A stretch of 64,000 nucleotides of DNA from Bolinopsis microptera (Eukaryota; Ctenophora; Tentaculata; Lobata; Bolinopsidae). The notes below the pieces were generated by a model. The model was not told the DNA's origin, searched no databases, and worked only from the letters and a program-made list of their open reading frames with translations. The stretch spans positions 14,854,983 through 14,918,982 of the forward strand of contig NC_087077.1 of NCBI RefSeq assembly GCF_026151205.1, written 5' to 3'. This document shows positions 6,820-45,700 of the stretch, piece after piece. Made by a program: the position numbers and the translations under genes. Each line of letters opens with the position of its first letter. Within the stretch, counting starts at the first letter, position 1.

Positions 6820-6977
6820 GAAAGAAACTCACGCACTGATCAAGGGTTCTCTCACACGTTATGTCACACGCGTTAGACTTGACGCGTTAGGATTTGTAAC
6901 GGTGGATCTGCTAAACCTTTAAATACATCAAGATTATGATTGCGTTGTGATTTTTATGGTTGTGCGGTATTCGAACT

Positions 6978-7288
6978 CTGTTTGTCTGTTTGTCTGTTTG
7001 TCTGTTTGTCTGTTTGTCTGTTTGTCTGTTTGTCTGTTTGTCTGTTTGTCTGTTTGTCTGTTTGTCTGTTTGTCTGTTTGTCTGTTTGTCTGTTTGTCTG
7101 TTTGTCTGTTTGTCTGTTTGTCTGTTTGTCTGTTTGTCTGTTTGTCTGTTTGTCTGTTTGTCTGTTTGTCTGTTTGTCTGTTTGTCTGTTTGTATGTTTG
7201 TCTGTTTGTATGTTTGTCTGTTTGTCTGTTTGTCTGTTTGTCTGTTTGTCTGTTTGTCTGTTTGTCTGTTTGTCTGTTTGTCTGTTTT
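6978..7288. repeat. 8-bp tandem repeat, unit TGTCTGTT (about 39 copies)
   Basis: Nearly perfect (GTCTGTTT)n array with a few A substitutions near 7190-7210 and decay at the right end. Long open frames in all + frames and one minus frame are artefacts of a repeat without stop codons. It lies about 160 bases upstream of the ATG of the tail-anchored gene, so it may be in its promoter. Confidence 0.95.
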
Positions 7289-7299
7289 TCTGTGTTTCT

Positions 7300-8539
7300 G
7301 TTTGTCTCAGTTTTACTGCTGGATCATTAGGCCATATATTTCCTAAAGTGTGAAGATCTAAGTCAGTCATTGTCAGGACAATGATTTATAAATTGTTTAT
7401 TTATCTCACTTTATCACAGATTCAACGTTCATATCCTTGAAAGTTCAAGTGGATGTACAAAATAAGAAAATCCTTTGTTAGACAAATATGCCGATCGAAG
7501 TTAAAATACTACAGTCAATACACGAGATCGCGGTAAACTACAGAGATAAACACATTGAAAAATGGCATAATCTACCAGTCTATCACTAGGCACATTAGAA
7601 TGTACAAAGATAGCTGCGTTAGTACATTTAGTCCATGCAAGAGAAAATAAAGAGAGCCCATTACGGGAATAGTGTGCAAATAAATAATTTTCAAGTTAAA
7701 TAATTAATAAATATTCGAAGAAACTTAATCAATAAAGTTTGAATTCTGATCAAATTGAATGCAATAATTTCAATGAATAACGTTAAAATGTCATTCCCTT
7801 GAAAATAAATTAAACTGTTTGAATAGTTTCTGTTATAGAAAACACAATCTCCATGCCAAGCAAAAATCTGCCAATATCGAAAATTAAATAAGGGTTACGT
7901 GCGCAAAAAAACTTAACATTTTACCAAAATAAACATTGCACACGATATCATGAAACAAATCTGACATTGATAAAAATACGCAATATGTTTGATGTTGTAG
8001 CACCTGCTCTGACCTCGTCATTACTTCTGTCCTACTACAAAGATAACGTTCGAGTTTGCACCAGCTTTAAAATACTACAAAACTGGTCTTTCTACACCTA
8101 ATGCACAAACAAATCTGCAGCCCCGAAATTTCGAGCTCCTCTTTCAACAGGCGATTATTTTTCAGCAGGTACAAGCCTTTCCTAGTATTCTTAATCTTAG
8201 ACAGTATTGCTGACATAAAATAATACCAGCACAATTTACATGAACATCGGCCCGGATATGTGCTCGAAATTTAGGGTATCAGATTTTTGTGCGTGACACT
8301 AACAATTCCTAAATTTCTATTGAAAGTCCTACAGAGTTCAAAGGGAGTCTAGCAAAGAATCGCCACCCGGGCACTATCTAACTCTTCAAACATCGTTTCT
8401 TCAAACATCGTTTCTTCAACCTCAAGCAAATCTTACTTCAACAGAGCTGGTTCTCATTTGATGACGTCACGTGGGGTGTGATGAAGTCACGTGATTTTTG
8501 ATGACGTCATCAATGTTCACCAGAGGGTAATGAAGCGGT
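7300..8539. other. Intergenic, 3' of the MADF/BESS gene
   Basis: AT-rich, no coding exon recognised. At 8459-8512 two TGACGTCA palindromes (CRE/ATF type) and two CACGTG E-boxes occur within about 55 bases, just downstream of the MADF gene stop codon. Confidence 0.45.
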
Positions 8540-11500
8540 TTAGCTTTGAGTTTTAGTGGGTGGTGGGGTTGACTCCTTAGTCTCACTACTACCGTTGGAT
8601 ACTTCTTTCTTTTCTTTGTGGATGATATTGAAAATCAACTGGTCAATCTGAAGAGAGATTATGTTTAAATTAATTATTAATAATAATTAATTACTAAAGT
8701 TGTGGAAAAGTCTAAATACATGCTCAAGTTGAAAAGCCTTTTGATGATGTTTTTATGTATCATATTTCTCATAATTTTTATCTACATGGTCAACGCTTAA
8801 TTTTTTAAAGCCTGCGCTGTACAGCCCCAATATTTTCATTTTACACCACTCTTTCCCTATATTCTAAATATAAAATTTACTCAACGATTTAAAGTTAAAC
8901 ATCTTTCTTTCAGCTCAGACGTTTAATATCCAGACCGTAGTTTTAAAGATTTGTCACCGAATTTAACTTTGATCAAAAAATACAACTCCACCGAGTTGAA
9001 CGCTAGACATCTCGCGTTTTACTATATCGCACAAGACTAACCCACCAACTAGACGATGGTCAAGATAATTTAATTATAATTAAACACGAGCATGAAACCC
9101 AGCAACATAGTCTCCTCACAACCCGGACCACCCTGACCCAGGAAATTGCAACTTTTATTTGGAAGAAGTTCAACTTCTTTATTGGAGGCAGTTGTTGTTC
9201 TTTCAAATTTTACCAAAAATTTTACCAAAAAAACTAATGAATACTAAAAAATCGAATAAATAAATTACTTGCAAACTGAAGATATCGTTAGCAGAGTAAT
9301 ATCCCTGTCACTATTTACCTGTCATCTACACAGATCCCTATCACTATTTACCTGTAATCTACACAGATCCCTATCAGTAGTTACCTGTAATCTACATAGA
9401 TCCCTATCAATATTTACCTGTAATCTACACAGATCCCTATCAGTAGTTACCTGTAATCTACACAGATCCCTATCAATATTTACCTGTAATCGACACAGAT
9501 CCCTATCAGTGTTTACCTGTAATCTACACAGATCCCTATCAGTATTTACATGCAATCTACACAGATCCCTATCAGTATTTACCTGTAATCTACACAGATC
9601 CCTATCAATATTTACCTGTAATCTACACAGATCCCTATCAGTATTTACCTGTAATCTGCACAGATCCCTATCAGTATTTACCTGTAATCGACACAGATCC
9701 CTATCAGTATTTACCTGTAATCTACACAGATCCCTATCAGTATTTACCTGTAATCTGCACAGATCCCTATCAGTATTTACTTGTAATCTACACATATCCA
9801 TATCAGTATTTACCTGTAATCTACACAGATCCCTATCAATATTTATCTGTAATCTACACAGATCCCTATCAGTATTTACCTGTAATCTGCACAGAACCCT
9901 ATCAGTATTTACTTGTAATCTACACAGATCCCTATCAGTATTTACCTGTAATCTGCACAGATCCCTATCAGTATTTACCTGTCATCTACACAGATCCCTA
10001 TCACTATTTACCTGTAATCTACACAGATCCCTATCAGTATTTACCTGTAATCTACACAGATCCCTATCAATATTTATCTGCAATCTACACAGATCCCTAT
10101 CAGTATTTACCTGTAATCTACACAGATCCCTATCAGTATTTACCTGTAATCTGCACAGATCCCTATCAGTATTTACCTGTAATCGACACAGATCCCTATC
10201 AGTATTTACCTGTAATCTACACAGATCCCTATCAGTATTTACCTGTAATCTGCACAGATCCCTATCAGTATTTACTTGTAATCTGCACAGATCCCTATCA
10301 GTATTTACCTGTAATCGACACAGATCCCTATCAGTATTTACCTGTAATCTACACAGATCCCTATCAATATTTATCTGCAATCTACACAGATCCCTATCAG
10401 TATTTACCTGTAATCTACACAGATCCCTATCAGTATTTACCTGTAATCTGCACAGATCCCTATCAGTATTTACCTGTAATCGACACAGATCCCTATCAGT
10501 ATTTACCTGTAATCTACACAGATCCCTATCAGTATTTACCTGTAATCTGCACAGATCCCTATCAGTATTTACTTGTAATCTGCACAGATCCCTATCAGTA
10601 TTTACCTGTAATCGACACAGATCCCTATCAGTATTTACCTGTAATCTACACAGATCCCTATCAGTATTTACCTGTAATCTGCACAGATCCCTATCAGTAT
10701 TTACCTGTAATCTACTCAGATCCCTATCAATATCAATCTGTAATCTACACAGATCCCTATCAGTATTTACCTGTAATCTGCACAGATCCCTATCAGTATT
10801 TACCTGTAATCGACACAGATCCCTATCAGTATTTACCTGTAATCTGCACAGATCCCTATCAGTATTTACCTGTAATCTACACAGATCCCTATCAGTATTT
10901 ACCTGTAATCTACACAGATCCCTATCAATATTTACCTGTAATCTACACAGATCCCTATCAGTATTTACCTGTAATCTACACAGATCCTTATCAGTATTTA
11001 CCTGTAATCTACACAGATCCCTATCAGTATTTACCTGTAATCTACACAGATCCCTATCAGTATTTACCTGTAATCTACACAGATCCCTATCAATATTTTC
11101 TTGTCCTTTATAACGTATAACATATCCATGCTAGTAGTCAATATCTACATTCTGCACCGTGGTAAGACGCATTATAATCTACACAGATCCCTATCAGTAT
11201 TTACCTGTAATCTACACAGATCCCTATCAGTATTAATCTGTAATCTACACATATCCCTATCAGTATTTACCTGTAATCTACACAGATCCCTATCAGTATT
11301 TACCTGTAATCGACACAGATCCCTATCAGTATTTACCTGTAATCTACACAGATCCCTATCAGTATTTATCTGTAATCTACACAGATCCCTATCAGTATTT
11401 ACCTGTAATTTACACAGATCCCTATCAGTATTTACCTGTAATCTACACAGATCCCTATCAGTATTTACCTGTAATCTACACAGATCCCTATCAATATTTA

Positions 11501-14500
11501 CCTGTAATTTACACAGATCCCTATCAATATTTACCTGTAATCTACACAGATCCCTATCGTATGTGGGCATCTGTCTGAGCTGATAAGCGACAGTTCGTCC
11601 GTAGTCCCCGCAAAGGTCCGCCTCCTCAGTTGACCTGCTGGAGGACTGTCGTTCACACAGCTTCCTCTTCTTACACACATCTCCAGCTGAAACAACACGG
11701 TATTAATGTTGGGTCATTTTTTATTGTCATTGTTTCTTTTTTTGTGTGGTTTTCATGTCCTTTATAACGTATAACATATTCATGCTAGTAGTCAATATCT
11801 ACATTCTGCACCGTGGTAAGACGCATTAGAAAAGAAACTTAACAAAGGGAGACAGTCTATGAGGATTAGGACCCATATACTATTACACCCATATCATATA
11901 GTATATACTACAATCTACATATTCATATTTCATATATACTACTTAATACATATATACTACATAATACATATAATATATAATATATACTACATATATGTTA
12001 TATACTGCATATAAACTACATGTATATTGTATATTACATATATATATATATATATATATATATACTTCGTATTATATATTGCATATATTCTGTGAGGGAA
12101 AATATTGAATTTTCAAGCGTCATTTATCAGTTTTTGAATTCGGGAAAAGAATTTTTATAAATCCCTAAATATAAACGCCTTTCTAAATAGTTTCCTCTCT
12201 CTTGCGTGGTTTCACTGGTTATCTACAAGGTCCGTAACTCTACAACTACTTAAATGATGTTTGCAGGACTTACAATATTTCCTGACATTTGCATGATTTA
12301 TTGACGTTTGAAGGGTTATAGCTGACAGTGACAGTAGCACGTTTTAATACCTGTCTGGGAGTGACCAGACACGCCTCCCACGAACTACGTGACGTCCCTT
12401 ATTAAACGCCGCCCACCTATTTCTCTAATAAATCTGGCAGACAGCAAGCGAATAAGACTCTCTGATATCGAGAAAATTATATTTACTGCTGTCGCAATTT
12501 AACTCCAGCCAAGTTTCATGTAATCGTGGTATAAGGTGTGGCTGGTTACTTACGGCTGTCACAGTCGGATTTGCCGGGGATGGCCAAGTTTTGGGGCAAG
12601 AGAGGAGCCACTGGTGTTTCGGAGCGGCCTTGTTCACTGTTGTCACCCTGTGAGAGGTTACTTTATTAGTCAAGGTGCTTTTCTCTTAACATTAATATCT
12701 CAAATAATAATACCCTCCGGGACGTTATAATACCATATAGCTTTCTCAACAGTGATTGACAATATACAATTTCACTAGTTGTGAATAATAGCTAGGGTTC
12801 AGGGGAGCGCGATCAAATAAATAAAGAAAATGAGAAATCATTGCCTTCCCGCGCAGGAAGTGCCGATTATCAAACACAAGGAAATATTTCCGTACCCTAG
12901 GACTGGTAGTGTTGTTAGGACTACAGTGCGGAGAGGAGTGATTAACTCCGTTCATCTGGTGAACTAGTCCGTTAGCATTGCTGTTCTGATCGCTTATATC
13001 TGGTGTTATCCCAAAACAGGAGGCCGCGGTTTCTGCTAGGGGCCCCTGGAGAGAATGTTTATATCAGCGCTATTCATTATTTGCATTCGACTAGATTTCT
13101 TTTATAAAATTGTACAAGACAAATGGCATAATTGTTCGTCGTTGTCTCGAATGTTTTTTAACTTTTCAAAATTAATCCTAAATATTATACCTGAAGAGCC
13201 TTGAGAACTGCGACTAGGTCAGCGTTGTTAGCCAGATGGAAAGCACTAGCGTCCAGAGTTCCTGAAGTGCTACCCATGGGAACCTGAACGGCACACTCCT
13301 CGGTCACGTGCTCTCTCTTCATAGTGGGGAGGTGGTAGGAGGAGGAGTTTCTGGCAGACATGTTCTGCGGAGGAAACACAGATTAAAACTTTGCGAAGAA
13401 GGATTGTCCGGAGAAAAATAGTTTGTTAGTAGAAAAGTGCTCGGCAGATTTTTATGAAATGAAGAATGAAAGAGAACGTAACGAACCTTTGCGAACCCCA
13501 GCTCAGCACCACTCTCATTCTTAACACTCATGAACTCGTGGATGAACTGCAGACTCTCGTAATAAGGCCATCTCGACTGGAGCTTCTCGTTTGTTTTCCT
13601 CTCGTGGTCTTGCAACTTTTTTGTCTCTCTTCGGAAGTAGCTTCGTAAATTCTCCAGTTTTCTCTTCGTTTCGTTAACTGAGGGAATATAAGGTTGCAAT
13701 AAAAACAGGAACTCAGACTATATATTTGAAATTCGCGTTTAAAAACGAACAGGTATAATGATCGGACCTTTACCGATTGTTGAAATTCGACATCTAGCGT
13801 CATCTAGCGTCATCTAGCGTCATTTAACGCTAGATGACGCTAGATGTCGAATTTCAACAATCGGTAAAGGTCCAAATGATCTACCACCTAGTAATATCAT
13901 TCAATAGAAGACAGAAAGTTAATGAATGAATTGTTCATTAATGGACTAACCAATCAATTAATGATATCAATTTTAGACGTACCAGTGAGATCAGGAATGT
14001 TGAGTTCCCGGACCAGATCATCATACACCATGTTCCGGATATCCCTATGAAAATACTCCGGATTACTGGGATTCCAGAGGACGGATTTCTTCTCGTACAG
14101 CTTTATCAAGCCTATTATCCTCTCGTGAGTCCAGTCGATGGTTGGGGAGGGGTTGCTACTGTTGGTGGAGGTGGTAGATGTTGTGGAGTTAGGGGCTGGG
14201 GAGAATGGGGGTGTTAATGTTTAAATGTATATAAGTTTTAATGTAGATAAGCTTTAAAATGAATATAGACAAGTTCAATAGTTCTTCTGTGCTCAAGGGT
14301 GTAATAAAAGAGCACCGAAATTAAGTTAGGTAAGTTTTGCACATACATTAAGTAAAATTCCATCAGTCATAATGAAGCCTAATTCAGGATGAATCTATGT
14401 CTAAAACGAATACGTTAATATTGGCCGATGAATTATGCAATATAATAATAAGATTACAAATATGCAAAGTATGAATATATGACTCACAACTGTAAGATGT

Positions 14501-37642: not shown

Positions 37643-40600
37643 CTTACTTTTTTTTACTTTGGGCGATCCTCAATCGAAATCCCATTCACTGTCTGCCTCC
37701 ACACGTCTCGATCGCACATAACAGTTCGAAGGTCGTCTAACTGGAGCCCAGTGTCACGAGCTACTACGTCCAGGAAGGTGAGTGGTCTCCTTCCACGGCC
37801 GGATTGGGCAAGTCGCCAGGGGAGGATAGTGGAGATAACTTGGTCAGAAGCTCTCATGCAATGCCCAGCGAATCTGGAACGCCTCGACGCAACCACTGAG
37901 GCAATAGATGGAAGGTTGCCATAGATCTGCTTGAGGGTTGGATGTTTCTTCCACGAGATGTTCTTGGCCTTCATTAAAAGACGGGTGTAGCATCCGTTGA
38001 GGCGCTTCTCAAGCTGCTTGTTTATGGTCCATGTCTCTGATCCATAGAGCAATACTGGTTCGACACAGGCTCTAAAGAACTTGACTTTCAGTTGTTCGGA
38101 AATGCCAGAGGACCAGACTTTTTGCAGTTTAATACAGGCTGACCAGGCCATTCCTTTCCTTGTGTTGAAATCCTTTCTACTGTCCGCAATGAAAGAGCCG
38201 AGGTATTTAAAGTCATCAACCTGTTTAATCTGGCGGCCTGAGATGGAATGTAAGTCGACATTGTCAGGGATGTTGATGGTCATGAACTCGGTCTTAGAAG
38301 CATTCATAGCAAGACCAACTTGTGCGGCTGCATTTTCAAGGTCTGTCAGCAGAAGTTGGACTTGCTCTATGGTGTCTGACATTAAGGCCAAATCATCAGC
38401 AAAGTCAAGGTCTGTGATTTTGACCGCAGGCACTCTTCGACTTTTCCTAGGCACGATGGTAAGACCGAATTCTTCACCCATGCAGCTTCTGAGGACATAG
38501 TCAAGGACGATGATGAAGAGAAAGGGTGCTAGAGTAAGGCCGTCGATGGTCTGGACACGAGAGAACGATGAGTCATAAAGAAGCCTGATAGCATCTACAA
38601 GTGGAGCAGGGATACCGTAGAGGGAGAGGATGTGGAAAAGGGCATCCCGGTTAATGCTGTCGAACGCTTTCGAAAAATCGACAAACACAATTGCGGCTGA
38701 GCGATTTCCGATCTTGCATTCCTCGAGTATACGACGTAGGGCAAGGACCTGTGGGAGTGTGGATCTTCCTCTACGGAAACCATTTTGGTTTGGCCGCAAG
38801 AGGGGATCAATGAATGGGTAGATCCGGTTGAGGATGAGCTTGTTAAAAACTTTCGCTGCAACCGGTGCCAGTGAAATGCCACGGTAGTTTCCTGGATTAG
38901 TAAGATCACCCTTTTTGGGGATAGGAATGATTGAGGCCGTTTTCCAGGCTTGAGGGATCACACCATCCATGAGTGCTTTGTTACAGAATCCGAGGAGGTT
39001 TTCACGTAGCTGGGGAAGCTTCCAGACTGAGGGAGGGATGCTATCCAGACCGGGTGACTTGGAGGATTTGGCGGACTTCAGAACCGTGTCGAGTTCTGAC
39101 ATGCTGAAGGATGAGCAGCTGATGGGCAGGGTGTCAGAGACTCGCTGGTTGAAGAAGGGGAGGGTGAGGTCCGGCGGAGGCTGTTCTGTGCCTAGAAGGG
39201 ACTTGAAGTGCTCGAACCAGATGTTGAGCCGTTCTTCGGTAGTGCCTCCTGGCACTTTGCAGTATGGCACAGTGTCGGAAGATGTTAGTTGCCTGATGAT
39301 GTGCCAGGAACTGCGATGCCTGTGCTCAGGGTTAGTTTTCTCCAGCAGGTCAGTCTGTTGTCGAATGTGCTGTGAAGTAGCAGCATTATAGGCTTCGTCC
39401 AGTTGCTTCTTTGCGTCTTCAAGCTTTTCCTTGGACGAAAAAGAGGGGGAAATCCTGTGACTCAGGGACGCATCCTTTAGGATATTGCGATGGTGTGCAA
39501 TATTAGGATCGTTGTAAGGATTTTCCCGTTTCCTCTTCCTCTTTTTTGGCAACACCTTAAGTGCTGTGCTTGTAACGCTTTTAACGAGCAGGTCGTAGTC
39601 GGACTCGAGCTCTGCTTCCTCTAGGAGTACACTGTACCTGTTTTTCACTTCCACTGCATACTGGTGTTTCATGATGGAATCGTGGATCAGTGGAGTCCAG
39701 TCAATGCTCCTAAGAGGGTCCCGTGCTGGAGTTTTGTTGACTCTGTAGCTGGCTTGAACAAAACATGTTACAATCCGGTGATCTGAACCGACAGTTTGCA
39801 TGATGTTGTACGCTTGACAGTTCTTCACACTGTTTGCCCACTTCTTACGCCAGAGTACAAAGTCAATTTGATGCTTTGCTCTTTTGGGGTCTTCATAGGT
39901 CCAAATTTTATTAGCCGGTTTCTGGAAACAGCGGTTAGCAACTATCAGCTGGTGTTGGTCTACCAGATCCAGTAGTCGTTCGCCGTTGTCGTTGGTTGAC
40001 TGATGGTATGTGAAACCGTAGCTATTACTGAGCTTCGCGTTGAAATCACCGCACACTGCTAGCATGTTGTGAGGAGGCACCTTAGAGATGATCCTGGTTA
40101 GAGCGTTGTAGAATGCAGTTTTATCTTCAATATCACTGCAGTTAGTAGGAGCATAACAGGAGAGGACTGTGAGGCGAGGATTCCCGTTTACATGGAGCAA
40201 GATGATTCTGCTATTAACTTTCTCTACAGATAGGAGAGATTTCTGAATTCTAGGAGATAAAAGAAACCCAACACCACCAACTGACGCATTAACTGAATTC
40301 TTCGTAGCAGAAGCAGTGATGAGCTGATATGATAAGATGTTTTCAATTCTTAGGGATTCTTTGTGGTGTTGGCGATGCTCTTGCAAGGAGATAACATCAT
40401 TATGATGCATGAAGGCTGAGTGAGCTAACTCCTGTTTACGTGATACAGGGTTGAGAGTCCTACAGTTGAAGGTGCTAACCTGAAAAGGGGTTTTCCTACG
40501 AACTAAAAGGGTAGTAACAGGGTTGCTGCAACTATCAGGACCCACCCCTCCCGGGGGTTTTAGGGAGGGCCCGTCATACAGGGAGCTAGCTGCCACTGAG

Positions 40601-40824
40601 TAGTTAGGGGCTTGAACCCTAGTGCTGTTATCGTGTGTCATCATAAAAGTGAGGGGGGATTTTGTCTAATGGCTAGACATTGTTCCAGGCACGGCGCCAC
40701 TGCAACCTGGATGTGACACTATAATCCAATACCCTCATCAGTAGGTACAATCACGGGTGCAGGTCTTCATAAACCCGGCTTGTTTTTCGAGGTATGTGCT
40801 CCTCTAGATCCGCCGTGTTTAGTT
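37643..40824 (-). mobile_element. RTE-like non-LTR retrotransposon with 13-bp target duplication
   Basis: TAATTATTAATTA occurs immediately left (37630-37642) and right (40825-40837), giving element bounds 37643-40824. The minus-strand open frame 37654-40644 fills nearly all of it; the 3' end is an A-rich tail right after the stop codon (AAAAAAAGTAAGTAATT), and about 180 bases precede the ATG. The flanking duplication and intact frame suggest a fairly recent insertion. Confidence 0.88.
37654..40644 (-). CDS. LINE ORF: AP endonuclease-reverse transcriptase (996 residues)
   Basis: N-terminal apurinic endonuclease domain about residues 55-300: FNCRTL, VISLQEHRQHH, LSCYAPTN, VCGDFNAKLS, VGSDHRIVTCF. 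Reverse transcriptase domain about residues 570-800: WKTASIIPIPKKGDLTNPGN, YRGISL, NQNGFRRGRSTLPQVLALRR, VFVDFSKAFDSINRDALFHI, DFADDLALM. The C-terminal tail (ETWTINKQLEKRLNGCYTRL ... RSRFAGHCMRASDQVIST) is typical of RTE-type elements; there is no RNase H domain. Between RVQTIDG and LTLAPFLFIIVLDY the segment that usually ends in GVLQGD is missing, about 15 residues lost in frame, so this copy is probably inactive despite its open frame. Confidence 0.9.
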   Translation of the reverse strand: MMTHDNSTRVQAPNYSVAASSLYDGPSLKPPGGVGPDSCSNPVTTLLVRRKTPFQVSTFNCRTLNPVSRKQELAHSAFMHHNDVISLQEHRQHHKESLRIENILSYQLITASATKNSVNASVGGVGFLLSPRIQKSLLSVEKVNSRIILLHVNGNPRLTVLSCYAPTNCSDIEDKTAFYNALTRIISKVPPHNMLAVCGDFNAKLSNSYGFTYHQSTNDNGERLLDLVDQHQLIVANRCFQKPANKIWTYEDPKRAKHQIDFVLWRKKWANSVKNCQAYNIMQTVGSDHRIVTCFVQASYRVNKTPARDPLRSIDWTPLIHDSIMKHQYAVEVKNRYSVLLEEAELESDYDLLVKSVTSTALKVLPKKRKRKRENPYNDPNIAHHRNILKDASLSHRISPSFSSKEKLEDAKKQLDEAYNAATSQHIRQQTDLLEKTNPEHRHRSSWHIIRQLTSSDTVPYCKVPGGTTEERLNIWFEHFKSLLGTEQPPPDLTLPFFNQRVSDTLPISCSSFSMSELDTVLKSAKSSKSPGLDSIPPSVWKLPQLRENLLGFCNKALMDGVIPQAWKTASIIPIPKKGDLTNPGNYRGISLAPVAAKVFNKLILNRIYPFIDPLLRPNQNGFRRGRSTLPQVLALRRILEECKIGNRSAAIVFVDFSKAFDSINRDALFHILSLYGIPAPLVDAIRLLYDSSFSRVQTIDGLTLAPFLFIIVLDYVLRSCMGEEFGLTIVPRKSRRVPAVKITDLDFADDLALMSDTIEQVQLLLTDLENAAAQVGLAMNASKTEFMTINIPDNVDLHSISGRQIKQVDDFKYLGSFIADSRKDFNTRKGMAWSACIKLQKVWSSGISEQLKVKFFRACVEPVLLYGSETWTINKQLEKRLNGCYTRLLMKAKNISWKKHPTLKQIYGNLPSIASVVASRRSRFAGHCMRASDQVISTILPWRLAQSGRGRRPLTFLDVVARDTGLQLDDLRTVMCDRDVWRQTVNGISIEDRPK

Positions 40825-42735: not shown

Positions 42736-45700
42736 CTAACCTAGTTGATCAGGTTCGTTCTCTTTGCGAGGATGGCGACCTCTTTCTCTTTCTCCTGCTG
42801 CAGGTACTGCTGAACCGAGTTCTGTGGAAGTTTACAGATCTGTTAGACGTGTTAGTAATGATATTGGTGGATAAGCTCAAATATCATTAATTTGTCGTGG
42901 AGTGATCACTGGTGAGGATTAAAAATTGTACGACTATCACTATTAAGTGGTTGAAACTTTTTCATAATTTTAAACTAATTTCAACAACACAAATCCATAA
43001 CATATGTTGAAATGGATGCGTGTAGTGGGTTAAGAAGGTAGGTATGAGGAGTGTAGTGGGTTAAGAAGGTATGTATGAGGAGTGTAGTGGGTTAAGAAGG
43101 TAGGTATGATGAGTGTAGTGGGTTAAGAAGGTATGTATGAGGAGTGTAGTGGGTTAAGAAGGTATGTATGAGGAGTGTAGTGGGTTAAGAAGGTAGGTAT
43201 GAGGAGTGTAGTGGGTTAAGAAGGTAGGTATGAGGAGTGTAGTGGGTTAAGAAGGTAGGTATGAGGAGTGTAGTGGGTTAAGAAGGTAGGTATGGATGAG
43301 TGTAGTGGGTTAAGAAGGTAGGTATGAGGAGTGTAGTGGGTTAAGAAGGTAGGTATGAGGAGTGTAGTGGGTTAAGAAGGTAGGTATGAGGAGTGTAGTG
43401 GGTTAAGAAGGTAGGTATGAGGAGTGTAGTGGGTTAAGAAGGTAGGTATGAGGAGTGTAGTGGGTTAAGAAGGTAGGTATGAGGAGTGTAGTGGGTTAAG
43501 AAGGTAGGTATGAGGAGTGTAGTGGGTTAAGAAGGTATGTATGAGGAGTGTAGTGGGTTAAGAAGGTATGTATGAGGAGTGTAGTGGGTTAAGAAGGTAG
43601 GTATGAGGAGTGTAGTGGGTTAAGAAGGTAGGTATGAGGAGTGTAGTGGGTTAAGAAGGTAGGTATGAGGAGTGTAGTGGGTTAAGAAGGTAGGTATGAG
43701 GAGTGTAGTGGGTTAAGAAGGTAGGTATGAGGAGTGTAGTGGGTTAAGAAGGTAGGTATGAGGAGTGTAGTGGGTTAAGAAGGTAGGTATGAGGAGTGTA
43801 GTGGGTTAAGAAGGTAGGTATGAGGAGTGTAGTGGGTTAAGAAGGTAGGTATGAGGAGTGTAGTGGGTTAAGAAGGTAGGTATGAGGAGTGTAGTGGGTT
43901 AAGAAGGTAGGTATGAGGAGTGTAGTGGGTTAAGAAGGTAGGTATGAGGAGTGTAGTGGGTTAAGAAGGTAGGTATGAGGAGTGTAGTGGGTTAAGAAGG
44001 TAGGTATGAGGAGTGTAGTGGGTTAAGAAGGTAGGTATGAGGAGTGTAGTGGGTTAAGAAGGTAGGTATGAGGAGTGTAGTGGGTTAAGAAGGTAGGTAT
44101 GAGGAGTGTAGTGGGTTAAGAAGGTAGGTATGAGGAGTGTAGTGGGTTAAGAAGGTAGGTATGATGAGTGTAGTGGGTTAAGAAGGTAGGTATGAGGAGT
44201 GTAGTGGGTTAAGAAGGTAGGTATGAGGAGTGTAGTGGGTTAAGAAGGTAGGTATGAGGAGTGTAGTGGGTTAAGAAGGTAGGTATGAGGAGTGTAGTGG
44301 GTTAAGAAGGTATGTATGAGGAGTGTAGTGGGTTAAGAAGGTAGGTATGAGGAGTGTAGTGGGTTAAGAAGGTAGGTATGAGGAGTGTAGTGGGTTAAGA
44401 AGGTAGGTATGAGGAGTGTAGTGGGTTAAGAAGGTAGGTATGAGGAGTGTAGTGGGTTAAGAAGGTAGGTATGAGGAGTGTAGTGGGTTAAGAAGGTATG
44501 TATGAGGAGTGTAGTGGGTTAAGAAGGTAGGTATGAGGAGTGTAGTGGGTTAAGAAGGTAGGTATGAGGAGTGTAGTGGGTTAAGAAGGTAGGTATGAGG
44601 AGTGTAGTGGGTTAAGAAGGTAGGTATGAGGATAATAAAGTAAAAGTGGACTACTCACCTTGACAGAGCAGGGTCCCTAATTTGTGGATGTCTTCTGAGT
44701 GGACAACATTCTCTGAGCGAGCAATATCTGCTATCAGAGTCACTTCATCCTCGCTATCACTATCGGGTGCTAAACTCTGAAGGGCGGAATATGGAAGATG
44801 TTATCAAGACTTTAGTGCTCTTATACAAGACATTTAGAGAAAAGGATCGCATAGCATAACAAAAAAAAGTTATTTGAAACAATAAGGTTGTTAGCTCTGT
44901 AAAAAAGTGGTTTAACTTCCACCAATAAAACTTTAACAGTTTCAGAATATTTACCCCACACATTTGATATATTTCCATTCAATTGAGGGCACGGTTTGGT
45001 GTATGTGACCGTGTTTGGTTTCCAAACAATTTTTACAGACGGGGCAGTATTTTATTCCAATAACATTTTGCCGTACTTATTGCTGTGATATGTTACAATA
45101 AGGTACTCAATAACGGGATTGCGGGAGATTATGTTTTTATTTATTTTGTATTGTAACCAGCCAAATTACAGAAAGCCCAAAGTTTCCCGATAAGTTTTTG
45201 GAGTAGACCATGGGAGTCTTTATCTCACTCCGGGGAACTTCCATTATACCACCATCCCTCCTGAGCTTTCATCGAGTATTTAACCGAGGAGACCTCCAAT
45301 ATTAATTAGTAATGATAACTTTTTGCGATCTTTGTTCTACGAAATTACCTAATTGACGCAAATTTTACCACCATTAATAATGCTTGTAGTTTTGTACTGG
45401 ATATATTATTTGAAAGATCAAAGACCGGTAAAAATTAAAATTGCATTAGACTATAACTAGTGATCAGACAATAATCGCATTAAAATTGGAAGTAAGTAAG
45501 ATCATAAAGATACGACATAAATTTCTGTTATCAAGGATGAACTTTATTAGTTATCCTTTATTTTTAATAATTACATTACAAACAAATACAGTCATTATCG
45601 AATAGAGCGAATTAGTGAGTTCAATTAAGATTTGTTCTCATTTCAAAGTTTACCAGGTTACGTAGCTTGAGATCCTTTGATTTGAGATCACTTATAATCA

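Follow-up and report, generated by a model that had tools for sequence, protein, structure and literature searches.

In the ctenophore Bolinopsis microptera, the last intron of a gene for a MADF-domain protein is largely occupied by a 33-bp tandem array whose unit spans the preceding exon-intron junction, and with each unit the donor splice site is repeated. The array is probably a tolerated minisatellite, born of a tandem duplication across the junction of exon 7 and intron 7 and then expanded inside the intron. Arrays of this kind recur at other donor and acceptor junctions in unrelated genes, among them a homeobox gene (L036), an importin-7-like gene (L030) and TAF2 (L033). The window analysed is the whole stretch of 64,000 nucleotides shown in part above (contig NC_087077.1; G000:C6:14854983-14918982 in our numbering), taken from a genome of 264.65 Mb in 232 contigs.

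The gene lies on the minus strand and has eight exons and a 406-aa product, in which a domain match (E=1.4e-18) bears out its earlier assignment to the MADF family. It spans 6.1 kb, the coding part taking 6,087 bp in the window. Intron 7, which separates exon 7 (11686-11535) from exon 8 (8647-8540), measures 2,887 bp, of which the array takes up about 2.2 kb. The features that matter here are the following:

11750..11828, minus strand: stretch of intron 6 matching the interruption of the array (sequence comparison).
11535..11686, minus strand: exon 7, 152 bp; the first repeat copy is formed by its final 24-26 bases (splice sites and frame; frame carried on in spliced homologues).
11529..11537, minus strand: true donor D0, CAG/GTAAAT (RLQ/IDQ join in five of five homologues).
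11172..11534, minus strand: array block 1, units 1-11, exon frame open up to a TAA (unit walk).
11172..11174, minus strand: in-frame TAA that terminates read-through of block 1 (unit walk).
11096..11174, minus strand: interruption of 79 bp, matching intron 6 at 77 of 79 positions (sequence comparison).
9319..11100, minus strand: array block 2, units 12-65 (unit walk).
9301..9318, minus strand: partial final unit, starting CAG/GTAAATAGTGACAGGG (Tandem Repeats Finder, TRF, and unit walk).
8648..8670, minus strand: acceptor of exon 8, pyrimidine-rich, about 650 bp past the array and dissimilar to the unit (sequence).
8540..8647, minus strand: exon 8, the last, 108 bp including the stop, IDQLIFNI...TQS (frame and homologues).

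The choice of donor can be read from spliced homologues. A protein search with the MADF protein gave five (P0002-P0006), of which P0002, with 406 aa, is 98% identical over its full length. It is encoded on a contig of 1,986 bp, against a coding span of 6,087 bp in the window, so the contig is spliced. P0002 reads RDLCRLQ-IDQLIFNI, with no repeat unit at the join, and P0003-P0006 (56-69% identical) likewise read RLQ-IDQ. The join of exons 7 and 8 thus falls at a conserved place in five of five homologues, and since it is free of repeats, the exon-proximal donor works. This confirms both the exon end at 11535 and the splice to 8647 that a first-pass annotation of this DNA had placed here. Use of D0 is seen in the spliced, near-identical homologue; the remaining copies would be removed with the intron.

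TRF reports the array at 9301-11562, with 68.4 copies, 91% matches and a score of 3766. A unit-by-unit walk along the minus strand counts 65 full units, at 11534-11172 and at 11100-9319, followed by a partial one that starts at 9318. The unit, GTAAATACTGATAGGGATCTGTGTAGATTACAG, consists of nine nucleotides of intron start followed by 24 nucleotides of exon end, a composition that had been recognised correctly at first reading. GTAAAT opens 55 of the 65 units and CAG closes 59, while the complete CAG/GTAAAT stands at 50 of 65 unit starts, in keeping with the earlier remark that most units retain it. However, the repeat homology reaches 24-26 nt into exon 7; the array does not begin exactly at the junction, as had been stated, and the junction is a choice of register rather than its anchor. 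The intron 6 insert (11174-11096) splits the array into two blocks and brings in the TAA. As an observation apart, this 79-bp copy looks as if it had been made by template switching. Among units 12-65, identical units are commonest nine apart (33%, against 2% for neighbours), as expected of repeated exchange or slippage of blocks. Long arrays can be given a wrong size, and either the number of units or the whole array might be an error of assembly; yet the array is set apart within itself by the variants of its units and by the insert from intron 6, and arrays of like kind with few units are found elsewhere in the genome. An artefact is very unlikely.

The composition of the unit shows that a tandem duplication across the junction started the array. 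The exon sequence GATAGGGAT and the stretch past the last full unit, GACAGGGAT, share a likeness that suggests slippage at a short direct repeat, although GACAGGGAT may just be a truncated last unit. From the sequence it follows that every such duplication leaves the former edge of the exon with a donor that is complete. Because an intact donor remains at the original edge, the gene keeps working and such rows are tolerated; the MADF array shows that minisatellites can occupy exon edges without killing the gene. The surplus donors would then be mostly silent and without selected function, D0 being chosen presumably for its place nearest the exon. Some 50 donors here have identical bases from -3 to +6 and cannot be ranked by strength, so the choice of the first must come from position, timing or exon definition.

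One alternative is a selected generator of isoforms, in which exon-proximal donors yield graded proteins in 11-residue steps within a conserved C-terminal motif. The first-pass annotation had proposed such a device for variable-length isoforms and counted about 66 in-frame donors. The donors are indeed repeated and the first few are in frame, but the TAA at 11174-11172, after unit 11, means that nine, not 66, could yield in-frame proteins. With the unit donors numbered from D1, the nine intact donors joinable to exon 8 in frame are D0-D4, D6-D8 and D10, with predicted products of 406, 417, 428, 439, 450, 472, 483, 494 and 516 aa, and they equal D0 at the conserved positions -3 to +6. D5 and D9 are dead. 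For human IFI6, PMC4526556 describes two downstream repeat units serving as donors, with three mRNAs, which speaks for such a device.

Against it, no extended protein was found, in a weak search. A query bearing the 11-unit read-through tail (region 355-491) matched two proteins, neither of them MADF, a weak negative, since the search covered 90% clusters within a length range. The two, P0007 and P0008, come from ENA contigs of 118 kb and 297 kb, have no listed Pfam domain and were taken as unrelated; they contain an 11-residue repeat with TDRDLC that resembles VNTDRDLCRLQ, probably by coincidence. Furthermore, any insertion would split RLQIDQLIFNI, a motif invariant across the six aligned sequences.

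The array units themselves hold little sign of selection. Over the 65 units there are 9 distinct variants at the nine donor positions and 13 at the other 24, with 2.2 variant occurrences per donor position and 2.0 per position elsewhere, and GT is lost in 7 of 65 units. The donor positions are unprotected, conserved to no higher degree than the remaining positions, and this counts against a selected use of the donors. Classed by the exon frame, the 22 distinct variants comprise 7 synonymous, 13 non-synonymous and 2 stop changes, where 21, 73 and 5 of 99 are possible; the coding signal in the array is faint at most. At eight donor junctions of the genome the units measure 33, 35, 29, 20, 32, 27, 41 and 34 bp. 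Six of the eight are not divisible by three and would break the frame (two of eight being about chance), which is evidence against a selected isoform device. Taken with the exon-proximal donor in all five homologues, these results make such a device improbable and do not uphold the earlier proposal, while occasional use of D1-D4, adding 11-44 residues, is plausible.

Equally improbable is a regulatory decoy, in which the surplus donors would bind U1 and slow or reduce splicing, route transcripts to decay via the TAA, or mask the AATAAA words at 9183 and 9159. U1 titration and slowed splicing, which the first-pass annotation had also suggested, find no support here. This reading is favoured by the 52 of 66 unit starts (D0 included) that share the predicted duplex energy of D0 with the U1 5' end. 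Products from D12 onward (calculated as far as D15) would end at 491 aa, their stop codon lying 104-203 nt ahead of the junction. It is weakened by the lack of conservation of the donor bases, and by poly(A) words in the intron that are no commoner than their reversals (4 against 6).

Two further explanations are very unlikely. Recursive splicing would employ the units as ratchet points, with an AG acceptor beside a GT donor. AG/GT joins do occur in most units, along with a branch-like word, CTGAT, but no pyrimidine tract precedes the unit AG (TGTGTAGATTACAG), and steps of 33 bp fall below the length of usual introns. The other is a coding repeat, in which exon 7 would extend through units 1-11 and end at the TAA. 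The open frame 11702-11172 allows this; however, the spliced homologues continue to exon 8, which is itself conserved in sequence, and when the read-through piece was modelled from its single sequence, the structure, with repeating strands, had low confidence (mean pLDDT 68.9). An antisense gene was also set aside; two frames of the plus strand do stay open throughout the array, but the unit length is divisible by three and no other support was found.

Minisatellites are common in this genome, with others at donor and acceptor junctions. Three copies of the donor word CAGGTAAGT at spacings of 8-38 bases are found 431 times genome-wide and the reversed pattern not at all, whereas the single words number 2,462 against 1,212 reversed, just twofold; the comparison is that of one word with its reversal. 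The triple-word matches overlap within arrays and represent at least nine places among the matches listed, on contigs up to C10. Nine of these places and one from the single-word matches (ten places, 11 stretches) were inspected. Six arrays lie at the donor of an open exon, one at an acceptor, and three have no assignable exon:

L036 (G000:C10:4506716-4507556): array at donor; homeodomain runs through the junction without a break (E=3.8e-23, 57 of 57 positions).
L030 (C4:3730100): array at donor; importin-7-like, E=8e-15.
L031: array at donor; WD40-like exon, weak, under the Pfam cut-off.
L029, L035, L037: array at donor; frame runs on into the next exon; Pfam gave no domain.
L033 (C8:7268823): array at acceptor; TAF2 homology begins directly past the last AG.

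One homeobox gene carries 20 extra consensus-matching donors. The L029 array starts with the first base of the intron and leaves the exon untouched. Incidental acceptor-side arrays were met in L030 (38 bp, four copies) and L037 (34 bp, three copies). At these junctions, too, the exon-proximal donor would be the one used. L032, L034 and L038/L039 were rejected as junction arrays, as no adjoining exon could be demonstrated. Two side observations belong here. At L035 (6040-6530), acceptor and exon start (TTGTTGCAGAAAGAAGTGTG) are repeated about four times, split by an 11-bp array, and the intron also holds a 32-bp donor array. In L038/L039 (G000:C1, about 6658000-6667200), a 57-bp unit that contains two AGGTAAGC words is repeated more than 118 times.

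Since these places were chosen by the donor word, they establish existence and not frequency. A survey free of the word was made on homeodomain and kinase regions, in a small sample chosen by eye from partial domain matches. Among 111 homeodomain matches listed, 23 stop between domain positions 37 and 48, as they would at an intron; 20 of these were newly examined, the others being L036 (known beforehand), one second copy and one with a stop. In L047 the junction is present five times (GAGGCTAGAGTACAG/GTCAGTAGTGGTATTTACT, about 34 bp). L046, with nearly identical flanks, has it three times, with a 7-bp array replacing the remainder. The L056 array, of 11 bp, runs from intron base 1, outside the exon, and in L063-L065 the exon end was not definable. 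Junction arrays were thus present at 3 of 21 homeodomain exon ends, L036 included, from two independent events. Apart from this count, L046 (G000:C6:20607831-20608431) and L047 (20710198-20710798) are homeobox duplicates and offer a natural case of array turnover; the 7-bp array of L046 is GTACATT, directly after the first donor.

There was no clear case in 20 acceptor-side homeodomain regions, L066 being ambiguous. L066 and L086 have a 48-bp repeat before the homeodomain that is open in frame and may be coding, and they were left out as acceptor arrays; each 48-bp unit contains TTCTTCAG (L066 1-210, L086 620-721, G000:C10 near 4499400), whether as coding repeat or acceptor array. Of the kinase regions, 0 of 22 on the donor side (about a dozen with an exon end visible by eye) and 0 of 18 on the acceptor side had a junction-spanning array, and L096 and L102 had arrays slightly inside the intron. 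Pooled, this gives 3 of 43 donor-side regions and none clear among 38 on the acceptor side.

By way of background, 18 arrays (period 10-100, at least three copies) were counted in six 10-kb pieces at preset places. By a rough estimate, based on the 11 arrays with periods of 17-47 in 124 kb, 3.8 arrays with CAGGTAAGT and 2.3 with its reversal were expected, and at least nine and none were seen, an excess over chance that is mild at most. The idea that minisatellites here carry donor words as a rule was considered and dropped: among 74 arrays unselected for the word, forward and reversed counts were 5 and 2 for AGGTA, 6 and 3 for GGTAA, 0 and 1 for AGGTAA, 0 and 0 for AGGTRAG, 2 and 0 for GTAAGT, and 1 and 0 for GTAAAT, small counts with no clear excess.

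Several points weigh against regarding the MADF array as merely tolerated. Firstly, the surplus of donor-word arrays (at least nine against 3.8, roughly) might be a sign that junctions are favoured sites and not only tolerated ones. Secondly, P0002 is 98% and not 100% identical, and its source may or may not carry the array. Thirdly, short-read assemblies lose 33-bp repeats, so the absence of extended isoforms there proves little and unseen isoforms are poor evidence. Fourthly, a slight synonymous surplus (7/22 against 21/99), with 11 frame-open units, leaves room for a coding role.

It may even be, although we hold this only tentatively, that junction arrays are a standing feature of gene architecture in this genome, with some per cent of exon ends bearing rows of near-identical donors, anything from a few up to 66, and certain acceptors likewise: duplication would rebuild the splice site and the spliceosome would take the one adjacent to the exon. 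If so, the rules by which splice sites compete could be read from this genome as from a natural library, and exon length would have a steady source of change. Many rows in one genome, several of them frame-breaking, would make the question of donor choice testable.

Other repeats and elements in the window include a 31-bp array at 43020-44632, rejected as a junction array because it lies, by eye, about 30 bp inside the intron of a minus-strand exon; it has 52 copies with 98% matches, and its plus strand is almost without C (GC skew 0.99). On the minus strand at 37654-40665, an open frame of 1,003 codons, endonuclease- and reverse-transcriptase-like by eye, is probably a LINE element. An 8-bp array (TCTGTTTG, 41 copies) at 6977-7307 is open in several frames.

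Among known systems, three bear comparison. The IFI6 minisatellite has a 12-bp unit in about 26 copies, against 33 bp and about 66 copies in the MADF array. This minisatellite provides the human gene IFI6 (6-16, G1P3) with several splice donors (Turri, Cuin and Porter 1995, as cited in PMC4526556) and is the closest precedent: in both genes an exon-end minisatellite supplies repeated donors beside the normal one. Arrays of the IFI6 kind have tandem units of about 10-100 bp (here 33 bp, 65 full units) that overlap a real exon-intron junction (here the last 24-26 exon bases, at a join confirmed by spliced homologues), with unit donors as good as the true one (here 52 of 66 at the predicted duplex energy of D0). 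The difference lies in use: two downstream repeat donors are reported for IFI6, while just the first is seen for MADF, D0 alone in the homologues, the extended-tail query being weak.

De Grassi and Ciccarelli (2009, PMC2812944) surveyed variable minisatellites at exon-intron boundaries in segmental duplications of the human genome. The units they report average 30 bp and alter exon-intron boundaries, and copy number differs between recent paralogues, as in L046 and L047. There, however, the average is four copies and the focus is on new introns and retained repeats, whereas here there are tens of copies, also in unduplicated conserved genes.

A third relative is intron gain by tandem genomic duplication of exon segments bearing AGGT (review, PMC3443670), in which, as here, tandem AG/GT copies create extra potential splice sites. 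There both splice sites come from the duplicated segment; the MADF intron pre-existed, and its acceptor (8648), with a pyrimidine tract of its own, lies outside the array, about 650 bp beyond it, and is not derived from it. Within the open-licence literature of PubMed Central, no report was found of a genome whose unrelated conserved genes repeatedly carry junction arrays. As a very large new example of the IFI6 kind, the MADF array draws its chief interest from this recurrence within a single genome.

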